DNA from: Salinigranum marinum
Lineage (GTDB): Archaea > Halobacteriota > Halobacteria > Halobacteriales > Haloferacaceae
Direction: 5' to 3'
Length of the DNA stretch: 64,000 bases
NCBI RefSeq assembly: GCF_024228675.1
Contig: NZ_CP100461.1
Coordinates: 1,612,001 to 1,676,000 of the forward strand
Part shown: positions 46,695-51,224 of the stretch, piece after piece
Layout: every line of letters begins with the position of its first letter
How positions within the stretch are numbered: the first letter of the stretch is position 1
The notes under the pieces: generated by a model
Databases searched by the model: none
What the model saw: only the letters and a program-made list of their open reading frames with translations
What the model was told of the DNA's origin: nothing
Translations under genes and position numbers: made by a program

Positions 46695-47753
46695 TCAGAG
46701 GTCGAGCCCACGGATCGAAACCCCCGCGTCGCCGTCGTCACAGGCCTCGACGTGGCCGACGATCCGTCCCTCCGTCGCGTCGGCCAGCGCCGCGGCGTCT
46801 TCGGGCGGGAGCGTGCAGACGAACCCCGTCCCCATGTTGAACGTGCGGTGCATCTCCTCGTCGGAGACGTTCCCCTCCGCCTGGACGAACGCGAACACCG
46901 AGTGGGCGTCGAACGGGTCGTCGATGGCGTAGCGGAACGGGCCCATCCTCGTCAGATTGGTCCATCCGCCGCCGGTGACGTGCGCCGCGGCGTGGACGCC
47001 GTGGGCCCGCATCGGATCCAGTAGATGAGAGTAGATTCGCGTCGGTTCGAGCAGCGCCGCGCCGACGCTGTCGTAGTCGGGTTCGTCTTCGTAGTCGTTC
47101 GCGTTCGAGAAGGGGTACGGATCGGTGTACGCGTGCCGGCGCGTGACGGCCGACCGGGCCAGCGTGAGGCCGTTCGAGTGGATGCCCGACGATCGGAAGC
47201 CGACGACGGCGTCGCCCGCCTGCGCCTCGCCGGGGAAGAGCGCGTCCTTGCCGGCCAGCCCCGCACAGGTCCCCGCGAGGTCGAGCCCCCGGACGACTTC
47301 GGGCATCACCGCGGTCTCCCCGCCGACGAGTTCGATGTCGGCCGCCTCGGCCCCGGCGCTGAGCCCCTCGCCGACCTGCGCCGAGAACGTCTCGTTCGGC
47401 TCGTCGACGGCGAGATAGTCGACGAACGCCACCGGCCGAACCCCGGCGGCGACCATGTCGTTGACGTTCATCGCGACGCAGTCGATCCCCACGGTCGAGT
47501 AGTCGCCGAGCGCCTCGGCGACGAGGAGCTTCGTGCCGACGCCGTCGGTCGCGAGCGCGAGGTAGCGGTCGCCGATGTCGAGTAACCCGGCGTAGTCGCC
47601 CGACCCGGCGTCGCCCGCCGCGGCGACGAGCGCCGCCGTCGCCGCCTCGCTCGCGTCGATGTCGACGCCCGTCTCGGCGTACGTCAGTTCCTCCGCGTCG
47701 TCCGCGTCCGGGTCCGCGCCGCCGTCGGTCCGGAGCGTAGAGCCAGTAGTCAT
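46695..47753 (-). CDS. purM: Phosphoribosylformylglycinamidine cyclo-ligase (AIR synthetase)
   Basis: A 352-residue PurM that forms aminoimidazole ribotide in purine synthesis, step five. Motifs include LALATDGVGTKLLVAEALGDYSTVGIDCVAMNVND, the Gly-rich VGGETAVMPEVV, and HVTGGGWTNL. The start ATG at 47753 is chosen over the upstream frame because it directly precedes the conserved LTYAETGVDID start. It stands alone, convergent in orientation to nothing, and is followed by P450 on the same strand 20 bp downstream. Confidence 0.95.
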   Translation of the reverse strand: MTTGSTLRTDGGADPDADDAEELTYAETGVDIDASEAATAALVAAAGDAGSGDYAGLLDIGDRYLALATDGVGTKLLVAEALGDYSTVGIDCVAMNVNDMVAAGVRPVAFVDYLAVDEPNETFSAQVGEGLSAGAEAADIELVGGETAVMPEVVRGLDLAGTCAGLAGKDALFPGEAQAGDAVVGFRSSGIHSNGLTLARSAVTRRHAYTDPYPFSNANDYEDEPDYDSVGAALLEPTRIYSHLLDPMRAHGVHAAAHVTGGGWTNLTRMGPFRYAIDDPFDAHSVFAFVQAEGNVSDEEMHRTFNMGTGFVCTLPPEDAAALADATEGRIVGHVEACDDGDAGVSIRGLDL

Positions 47754-47850
47754 GTCCGAACGCCCGCACGGCCCGGGCAAGAACCCCTCGGTTGCCGCCG
47801 CGCGAGCGTCAGGTTCTCTGCCGACCTCGGTTCGGTCGAAACGGCCTGAG

Positions 47851-47945
47851 AAACGTTCGTAAAACTTCTCGAAGCGAGAGAAACAGTCGTGAAACGTCGT
47901 CACGACGACCAGAACGGTCTCACACGGTCGTAAACAGTTCGTAAC
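47851..47945. repeat. Cluster of four degenerate (A)AC-GTTCGTAA-like motifs
   Basis: AAACGTTCGTAAAAC at 47851-47865, AAACAGTCGTGAAAC at 47881-47895, ACGGTCGTAAAC at 47924-47935 and AAACAGTTCGTAAC at 47932-47945. The repeated core is about GTYCGTRAA. All four lie in the intergenic region between purM and the small membrane gene, upstream of the latter's TATA box (TCTATTTATA near 47976). Confidence 0.5.
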
Positions 47946-48836: not shown

Positions 48837-49484
48837 TCAAAAGCCCACGCCGAAGACGAACACCACGACGATGGCGACGACGAGGCTCGGGACGAAGACG
48901 GCGAGGAACACGGGCGTGCTCCAGTCGAGCACTGTCCGGCCGTCGAGCGAGCCGAACGGGATCATGTTGAACGCCGCGAGGAAGAGGTTGATCGCGAGGC
49001 CACGTGCGCCGAGGAGTTCGACGAAGCCCGACCCGAGGAGGCTCCCCACGGCGAGGATCGGCAGGAACAGGAGCGAGAGCCCGATGTTCGCGGCGGGGCC
49101 CGCCAGTGCAATGAGGCCGTGCTCGCGGTCCGAGAGGACGCCGCGGTGGTACACCGCCCCCGGCGCGGCGAAGATGAAGCCCGCGAGCGCGCTCATTACC
49201 GCGAGGAAGAGCATCCCGTAGTCGGCGCGGAACTCCGCGACCTGCCCGAAGCGGACCGCGGCGACCTTGTGGGCGAGTTCGTGCAGGAGGAAGCCGATCC
49301 CCGCCGTGAGGAGGCTCACGACGACCGCGGCGACGAAGCCCCCCTGGGACAACAGCGTGAGCAGGCCGCGGCCGCCGCCGGCGAAGAAGACCGCGAAGGC
49401 GACGCCGAGGGCGACCCACGCGACCGCGAGGTCGCGCAGTTCGCGGTCCGAAAACCGGAGCGCCCGGTCGACGGTCCGGCTCAC
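48837..49484 (-). CDS. Site-2-protease-type zinc metalloprotease (M50)
   Basis: A 215-residue intramembrane protease with about six hydrophobic segments. The zinc site is His68-Glu69-x2-His72 (FLLHELAHK) plus Asp181 (NMIPFGSLDGRTV), both intact. There is no PDZ or CBS domain, so it belongs to the minimal M50 group found in archaea. Site-2 proteases cut transmembrane helices of anti-sigma factors or signal-peptide remnants in other organisms. Its ATG overlaps the stop of the upstream TraB/PrgY-like gene (ATGA), which implies coupled synthesis. Confidence 0.9.
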   Translation of the reverse strand: MSRTVDRALRFSDRELRDLAVAWVALGVAFAVFFAGGGRGLLTLLSQGGFVAAVVVSLLTAGIGFLLHELAHKVAAVRFGQVAEFRADYGMLFLAVMSALAGFIFAAPGAVYHRGVLSDREHGLIALAGPAANIGLSLLFLPILAVGSLLGSGFVELLGARGLAINLFLAAFNMIPFGSLDGRTVLDWSTPVFLAVFVPSLVVAIVVVFVFGVGF

Positions 49485-51154
49485 GTGACGGCCCTCCAGA
49501 CGAGGTCGGCGCTGTTGGCCGCCCCGTCGAGCATCAGCCGGGTGACGGCGTCTACCCCGCCGAGGTCGGCCGCGAACAGCGGCAGGACGTACGCGACGAA
49601 CAGCAGGCTAGCGACGATGCTCCCGATGTTGGTCATCGCGACGACCATGATGAGCCGGAAGAGCGGGACGTCGAACATGTCGGAGACAATCGCGCGGAGC
49701 GGGCGTTCCTCGTCCGAGAGGAGTTCGTTCAGGCGTCCGATGTCGGTCACGTTCACGGGTGTGTGCCGGAGCTCCATGTAGCCGGTGAACCAGCCCGGCG
49801 CGAGCAGGGGGTTCACGGACGTGAGCCACGCGACCGCGCCGCCGACGAGCGCCGACGGCCACCGCGCGCCAGCCGCCTTGGCGAGGCCAGCGGCGAAGAC
49901 GCCGTTGATGAGGAACCAGGCGGCGAACACCCGGAGCAGGAAGCCGTTCCGGACGCCGGCCATCGCCAGGAGGACGAAGAAGCCGACGAACACGACGGAG
50001 AGACCGCCGCCGACGATCTTCCCCCACGGGATGCCACGTTTCGACGACTGCCCGATGAGCGACGCCATCGGCGGGAGCGTCTCCGGTCGTTCCAAGTAGG
50101 CCTCGATGCCCGCGCGGTGACCCGCGCCGACGACGGCGACGACGTGTGCACCCTGGTCCCGCAGCGCGACGAGTTTGTGCGCGATGTACGCGTCGCGCTC
50201 GTCGATGAGCGCCTCCGCGCCGCCGGGCGAGAAGGCGCGGAACTCCTCCATCATGACGCTCACCACGTCGGCGTCGGTTAGCTCCTCGATGTCGAACTCG
50301 TCGACCTCCTCGTACGAGCCGACGCCGAGGCCGTGGGCGAGGAGGCCGCCGAACCCACCGACGGCGACCCCGAGGCCGACACCGATCGCGAGGCTTCCGA
50401 CGGCCTGGACGACGAACGTGCTCAGGCGATCGACCAGCGGGGCGGCGAGGCCCAGGCCGACGCCGGCGACGAGGCCGACCGCGAGGCCGCCGCCGAGGCC
50501 GAGGTAGAGGGCGTCGTCGCCGTCGAGGAACGCGTCGCCGAGCGTTCGGAGCGCGAGGCCGGCCGCGAGTGCGAGGACGACCCCGCCGGTCACGCGCCCG
50601 AGGACGAACGGCGTGACGCCGACGCTCCCGCCGAACAGTCCCACGATGGGGCCGACGAGCACGCCCGCGAGCACGCCGACGACGATCCCCACGGCGCGGG
50701 CGTCGGAGACGCCGAAGACGAGCCCCCCGGCCATCCGGAACTTCTCGACGAGCGACATCCGCGCCCAGAAGCGCTGGATCGTGGTCTGGATGTCGCGGTC
50801 GACGAGCGCCACGTCGATCCCCGCCTCCTCGGCGGTGTCGACCGCGGCGAGCATGTCCGCACCCGGCGAGATGTCGAACTTCTCCCCCAGGCGCGCCTGC
50901 ACGTACGAGAGCATCCAGTACGCGATGAACTGGAAGACGGTATTCCCTTCGAGGAGGTCGCCGGGCTCGATGTCGTCGGGCGTTCCCCCCTTCAGCTGGC
51001 GGTAGCGCCCCTCGTCGAGTTCGACGGCCACGACGTCGGGACGCTCGCGTCGGATCGTCTCTTCGACTTCGGTCACGCTGTCAGCGGAGACGTGGGCGGT
51101 CCCCACGACCTGCACCCGTCCCCGAGCCGGTGACGGGGCCGCGTCCTGACTCAT
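49481..51154 (-). CDS. TraB/PrgY-like membrane protein
   Basis: A 557-residue protein of the TraB/PrgY (pheromone shutdown) family. Landmarks are VVGTAHVSADS at 16-26, ELDEGRY, ERDAYIAHKLV at 319-329 and AVVGAGHRAGI at 340-350. Between them residues 150-280 form an inserted block of about six Gly/Ala-rich helices, and four or five further transmembrane helices follow after 380. ATG at 51154 is preferred to 51181. Family proteins are thought to be metal-dependent and to degrade or block peptides. It is cotranscribed with the M50 protease. Confidence 0.85.
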   Translation of the reverse strand: MSQDAAPSPARGRVQVVGTAHVSADSVTEVEETIRRERPDVVAVELDEGRYRQLKGGTPDDIEPGDLLEGNTVFQFIAYWMLSYVQARLGEKFDISPGADMLAAVDTAEEAGIDVALVDRDIQTTIQRFWARMSLVEKFRMAGGLVFGVSDARAVGIVVGVLAGVLVGPIVGLFGGSVGVTPFVLGRVTGGVVLALAAGLALRTLGDAFLDGDDALYLGLGGGLAVGLVAGVGLGLAAPLVDRLSTFVVQAVGSLAIGVGLGVAVGGFGGLLAHGLGVGSYEEVDEFDIEELTDADVVSVMMEEFRAFSPGGAEALIDERDAYIAHKLVALRDQGAHVVAVVGAGHRAGIEAYLERPETLPPMASLIGQSSKRGIPWGKIVGGGLSVVFVGFFVLLAMAGVRNGFLLRVFAAWFLINGVFAAGLAKAAGARWPSALVGGAVAWLTSVNPLLAPGWFTGYMELRHTPVNVTDIGRLNELLSDEERPLRAIVSDMFDVPLFRLIMVVAMTNIGSIVASLLFVAYVLPLFAADLGGVDAVTRLMLDGAANSADLVWRAVT

Positions 51155-51224
51155 TGCCGGGTTTTTCAGGCGGCCCCTCATACGCTTGTCGGTGCTTTAT
51201 TACTCGTCCGGTCGACCCGGGGAC

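Follow-up and report, generated by a model that had tools for sequence, protein, structure and literature searches.

What does a TraB/PrgY-like membrane protein do beside a site-2 protease (S2P) in the chromosome of a haloarchaeon? The question is raised by a gene pair of Salinigranum marinum that lies in the window analysed here, the whole stretch of 64,000 nucleotides at positions 1,612,001 to 1,676,000 of contig NZ_CP100461.1; all positions below count from its first letter. The original prediction described a 557-residue TraB protein whose gene overlaps that of an intact M50 protease, and both reading frames are present at this place on the minus strand. The overlap itself had been read as ATGA and is in fact GTGA, the M50 start codon being GTG. 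The genes and their immediate signals are as follows.

49481..51154, minus strand: traB, TraB/PrgY/GumN-family membrane protein of 557 aa; ATG at 51154, stop at 49481; matches TIGR00261 and PF01963
48837..49484, minus strand: compact M50 S2P of 215 aa without PDZ or CBS domain; GTG at 49484, stop at 48837; HELAH, FNMIPxGxLDG and six hydrophobic segments; profile match to MjS2P 3b4r
49481..49484, minus strand: four-base stop/start overlap GTGA of traB and the compact S2P gene, read directly from the sequence
51195..51202, minus strand: TATA-like box TAATAAAG 5' of traB, near a divergent glycerate-kinase-like gene, found by eye

An alternative upstream ATG at 51181 would lengthen TraB to 566 aa; the TATA-like box near 51202-51195 favours the start at 51154.

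Catalytic motifs of the two proteins

TraB matches TIGR00261 with E=5.1e-76 (256 bits, against a curated cut-off of 178), in two stretches that flank an insertion, and PF01963 with E=6.5e-29. Its motifs, in the numbering of the 557-aa protein, are GTAH (18-21), VEL (44-46), VDRDI (118-122), IDERDAY (317-323) and GAGH (343-346). They had been placed at residues 26 and 319; these positions were wrong as motif positions, but E319 is an invariant residue. The conserved motifs of both proteins map to the window as follows.

51092..51103, minus strand: TraB GTAH (H21), first TIKI-type catalytic motif; G18, T19 and H21 do not vary among the 53 TraB proteins aligned
51017..51025, minus strand: TraB VEL (E45), invariant in 53 aligned TraB proteins
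50192..50203, minus strand: TraB DERD, residues 318-321; E319, R320 and D321 invariant in 53 aligned TraB proteins
50117..50128, minus strand: TraB GAGH with H346, the second catalytic motif of TIKI type; the same in all 53 TraB proteins aligned
49269..49283, minus strand: M50 zinc motif HELAH, residues 68-72; H68, E69 and H72 do not vary across an alignment of 20 compact S2Ps
48939..48947, minus strand: LDG of the M50 protein (residues 180-182), motif of its third zinc ligand; the same in all 20 compact S2Ps aligned

A TIKI fold alone does not make a protein a protease. In TraB the TIKI catalytic set, two GxxH motifs and the VEL glutamate, is present, with H21, E45 and H346 invariant in all 53 sequences. 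These residues are consistent with the 2His/2Glu active site of TIKI peptidases (PMC6254334), a comparison that covers both histidines and one of the glutamates, E45. Peptidases of the TIKI superfamily (Tiki, RRSP, Ere-type) carry GxxH motifs and a glutamate in matching order and belong to the same sequence family, with a weak structural match; unlike them, archaeal TraB has a multi-helix membrane block and is coupled by its gene to an S2P. The AlphaFold model of TraB shows the TraB/TIKI fold: its core pLDDT is mostly 90-98, and its top Foldseek match is a Tetrahymena TraB protein (probability 1.00, E=4.5e-3), at a TM-score of only 0.24-0.34 when the full chain, disordered insertion included, is counted. 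The closest solved fold is chain E of 7w5z, from Tetrahymena mitochondrial complex IV (E=7e-5 in a second comparison). This subunit and human TRABD share the TraB domain with the archaeal protein; no S2P partner is described for these mitochondrial proteins, and protease activity of TRABD is unproven (PMC12329661). Besides 7w5z chain E, the TraB-family subunit of Tetrahymena complex IV is seen in 8b6h and 8bqs.

The M50 protease is intact, as had been claimed: HELAH lies inside a predicted helix (residues 47-78), and in the (F)N..P...LDG motif N173, P176, D181 and G182 are invariant among the 20 aligned sequences. Searched alone, the compact S2P matches PF02163 with E=1.4e-5 and 24.9 bits, slightly below the curated cut-off of 27.2. 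Its profile matches the structure of MjS2P, 3b4r, with E=3.7e-6 and the profile of S2Ps with CBS domains (CBS-S2P) with a probability of 98.4% in hhalign; searches of the PDB with the single sequence of either TraB or the compact S2P returned nothing useful, so that profiles were needed. No Foldseek match to the model of the compact S2P reached a significant E-value, and a high probability was confined to the 3b4r rows (0.97, at E=0.23). The compact S2P thus shares the HExxH/DG catalytic core of the MjS2P type (MJ0392), yet is without CBS domains and forms a separate, compact group.

Linkage of TraB and site-2 proteases across the phylum

In haloarchaea the pairing is a rule rather than an accident of one genome. 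The compact S2P gene lies directly 3' of traB on the same strand in 30/30 loci of the same family (at L027 about 257 nt separate the genes) and in 17 of the 21 loci from other haloarchaeal families, each represented by one or two genomes, so that adjacency is found in 12 of the 15 families sampled; families f2, f9 and f11 show none in the loci examined. A reverse survey starting from the compact S2P found TraB directly 5' in 30/30 loci, a biased choice in that the 30 best-scoring loci were taken. Neighbourhood in other haloarchaea, on which the original prediction had staked the pairing, is therefore kept. The compact S2P is single-copy in 44/44 near-complete genomes drawn evenly from the order Halobacteriales. 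As the 4.9 Mb genome of Salinigranum marinum holds just five further M50 genes by Pfam, a repeated neighbourhood of TraB and S2P by chance is not credible. The CBS-S2P gene is unlinked to traB in haloarchaea; in Salinigranum marinum the two are about 1.16 Mb apart on one contig. Some haloarchaea also encode another TraB paralogue, shorter at about 280-300 aa (G043:C15, G058:C30, G041:C17, G057:C1).

The pairing had been proposed as a haloarchaeal one, and this scope proved too narrow. TIGR00261 TraB occurs in 119 of the 120 genomes sampled over the phylum, and in many of the non-halophiles sampled traB lies directly 3' of the gene for a second S2P, which is about 370 aa long, carries CBS domains and is a member of the MjS2P family (3b4r, E=6e-68). 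Three arrangements occur: traB directly 3' of the CBS-S2P gene, directly 5' of the compact S2P gene, or between both. The full row CBS-S2P, TraB, compact S2P is found at L084, L090, L093, L095, L098, L099, L103, L104, L106 and L167, where L098 and L103 stem from one genome. Among 80 named loci, CBS-S2P lies 5' of TraB in 47, four of which also have the compact S2P, and one more locus has the compact S2P only; the other 32 include loci truncated by contig ends. Every strong S2P neighbour in a scan of 180 loci follows one of these arrangements, on the same strand as traB. When all neighbours within about 6 kb were compared with one another, the two S2Ps proved to be the most widely shared real genes, far ahead of purM with 17 loci and aspartokinase with 10. 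No TraB-M50 fusion protein occurs among the open reading frames of the loci fetched, and the TraB of Cytobacillus has no adjoining M50 gene; the adjacency surveys themselves covered one archaeal phylum.

Like families f2, f9 and f11, genomes of the Methanomicrobiales and ANME-1 types have no adjacency of TraB and S2P, the genes lying apart or the S2P not being found; genomes without a compact S2P beside TraB often carry it at another place. We infer from these arrangements an ancestral cluster of CBS-S2P, TraB and compact S2P, of which different lineages would have retained different S2P neighbours. Part of the linkage is probably old synteny, since purM, and aspartokinase in the three-gene loci, also stay nearby in some lineages; the placement of purM close to these genes, both in many haloarchaea and at three-gene loci, suggests as much.

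Several neighbours deserve mention in their own right. In the window purM (46695-47903, minus strand) lies a few kb 3' of the pair, as it does in 17 related loci. Aspartokinase follows the compact S2P gene in nearly all three-gene rows, and also at L105, whose contig lacks the upstream side. In ANME-1-type genomes traB lies 3' of a gene resembling, by eye, the archaeal release factor aRF1 (L088, L089, L146, L148-L150, L152, L154, L160, L161, L165, L170). At L159, on a contig titled Candidatus Nitrosotalea, TraB and the upstream genes cluster with Methanophagales loci, possibly through mis-binning or a mislabel.

Membrane segments and predicted topology

TraB of Salinigranum marinum has two hydrophobic regions of different standing.

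50300..50707, minus strand: lineage-specific glycine-rich insertion, residues 150-285, with four predicted membrane helices; absent in many haloarchaea; AlphaFold pLDDT <50 at 162-284
49565..50026, minus strand: C-terminal membrane block (residues 377-530), conserved; NPLLAPGW separates two half-helices in the alignment and the AlphaFold model; lost in families f24 and f26

The large multi-helix insertion that had been described is real: about 130 residues (roughly 150-285) fall between TIGR00261 positions 137 and 142, and the spacing from DRD to GAGH is about 220 residues with the insertion and about 90 without. The further claim, that this membrane segment is part of the function, found no support. 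Many haloarchaeal TraB proteins lack the insertion, as do nearly all of those sampled from non-halophiles, and families f5, f6 and f12 include TraB both with and without it. Where it occurs, its predicted helices vary, numbering about 0, 2 or 4 across TraB proteins, with a crude hydropathy scan calling 3 or 5 in a few. Given this absence and variability and a pLDDT below 50 (residues 162-284, modelled on an alignment without homologues of the insertion), it is dispensable for the general function of TraB; as the functional core of the protein it is ruled out by its absence in many relatives and the low model confidence. The helix counts look like gain and loss of membrane hairpins.

The C-terminal membrane block is better conserved than the insertion. 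It too is lost in families f24 and f26, where TraB measures about 250 aa and has no membrane block at all (L091 5538-6272, L093 5576-6331, G068). In f26 this membrane-free TraB still lies between both S2Ps (also G068 and G077); in f24, at the one locus examined (L091), no S2P adjoins it.

Lysine and arginine cluster directly ahead of the first C-terminal helix of TraB, between its later helices, and after HELAH in the S2P. By the positive-inside rule both active sites are predicted to face the cytosol, and the membrane-free TraB of f24 and f26 agrees with this. The exposure of human TRABD on the outer mitochondrial face (PMC12329661) likewise speaks for a cytosolic TraB domain. For PrgY an extracellular action is described (PMC7117660), at odds with the topology predicted here.

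A candidate proteolysis module and its alternatives

The genome evidence supports well a partnership of TraB and S2P, and points to one that is widespread, uncharacterised and concerned with membrane proteolysis. The open-licence full texts searched for TraB with a site-2 protease, for archaeal TraB and for arCOG02142 yielded no description of the pairing, and the partners and substrates of haloarchaeal S2Ps are not established (PMC9263693). We propose that the two proteins form one membrane-proteolysis module. The S2P would cut within the membrane near its cytosolic face, and TraB, as a TIKI-fold peptidase whose predicted cytosolic catalytic domain is held to the membrane by the C-terminal helices, would most likely cleave or clear the peptide or stub so freed, such as membrane-protein fragments or signal-peptide remnants. 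To this reading as a whole we give a probability of about 0.5. It is highly probable that TraB and S2P serve one pathway, although linkage proves neither interaction nor order of action, and either S2P alone, CBS or compact, can be the neighbour that TraB retains. That TraB acts after the S2P is a little less than an even call; we place it there mainly because the connection of TraB and S2P recurs in two distant settings, the archaea and Enterococcus. We infer physical contact, the order of cleavage, the cytosolic topology and the substrates alike.

The Enterococcus analogy, as first drawn, turned out to be true homology over the full length. With the insertion-free archaeal TraB of L098 as query, matches to TraB/GumN proteins of E. 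faecalis plasmids reach 94-98% coverage at about 29-33% identity, with E-values as low as 1e-41, and 431 Enterococcus plasmid records match; the Salinigranum marinum protein itself gives 36% over residues 11-153. Enterococcal TraB (pAD1, pPD1) and PrgY (pCF10) thus belong to the same subfamily near full length, membrane block included, and both they and the archaeal protein are tied to an S2P, functionally or genomically: PrgY is regarded as a peptidase that eliminates cCF10, and Eep, an S2P, is required to release that peptide (PMC7117660). Could the archaeal pair then produce and shut down a peptide pheromone? The homology and the nature of Eep as an S2P (PMC7117660, PMC10202637) would fit. 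However, enterococcal TraB/PrgY are plasmid genes facing a chromosomal eep and one narrow substrate class, and pheromone shutdown involves a specific secreted pheromone and plasmid conjugation, whereas archaeal traB is a chromosomal gene in nearly every genome. Both genes belong to the single-copy core of the phylum or the order, which argues against a dedicated pheromone system, and no conjugation, pheromone, receptor, exporter or regulator gene recurs beside the pair in the neighbour survey. A pheromone pair is thus very improbable, and the peptide signalling once suggested is unlikely to be the main role; clearing of signal-peptide remnants, the other half of that suggestion, may be a role of the pair.

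The order of action could also be reversed, with TraB making a first, site-1-like cut on the cytosolic side and the S2P the second, so that TraB would be the missing first protease of an archaeal pathway of regulated intramembrane proteolysis (RIP). RIP usually requires a trimming first cut (PMC10202637), haloarchaeal S2Ps are without an established S1P partner (PMC9263693), and the conserved gene coupling would suit such a pair. Yet descriptions of site-1 cuts place them on the outer face (PMC10202637), and TraB is predicted to be cytosolic; moreover, the compact S2P is without PDZ or CBS domain. We regard this order as unlikely. The module proposed here shares with RIP systems (RseP, Eep or RasP with a site-1 protease) an S2P-centred sequential proteolysis, which in our case is a proposal, and differs in having no PDZ domain, no anti-sigma factor, and TraB as partner in place of DegS or PrsW. 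It is rather improbable that TraB is a non-catalytic subunit, a membrane adaptor that gates or inhibits the S2P: translational coupling in Salinigranum marinum suits a fixed stoichiometry and the membrane block has a conserved NPxLAPGW motif, but the catalytic residues of TraB are invariant, and the f26 protein keeps its place between both S2Ps after losing the block. Finally, the genes may be functionally unrelated relics of an ancestral housekeeping cluster (CBS-S2P, traB, compact S2P, aspartokinase, purM), in which purM and aspartokinase hold similar positions in some lineages. Such a cluster leaves it hard to see why an S2P stayed beside TraB after break-up in most lineages, and why different S2Ps were kept in different lineages with order and strand constant; we hold it to be improbable.

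On the preferred reading of a joint module, TraB may tentatively be seen as a dedicated partner peptidase of S2Ps, ancestral to the phylum within one operon, and PrgY as a plasmid-borne member turned to signalling. The link between TraB and S2P gives a testable context to haloarchaeal S2Ps and to a near-universal gene of the phylum, offers a reason for enterococcal PrgY acting on S2P products, and may bear on the TraB-domain proteins of eukaryotic mitochondria. Among the Enterococcus matches, one on a plasmid (NZ_CP110051.1, 1103-1522; H51) lies under a feature annotated lgt, likely a misannotation.
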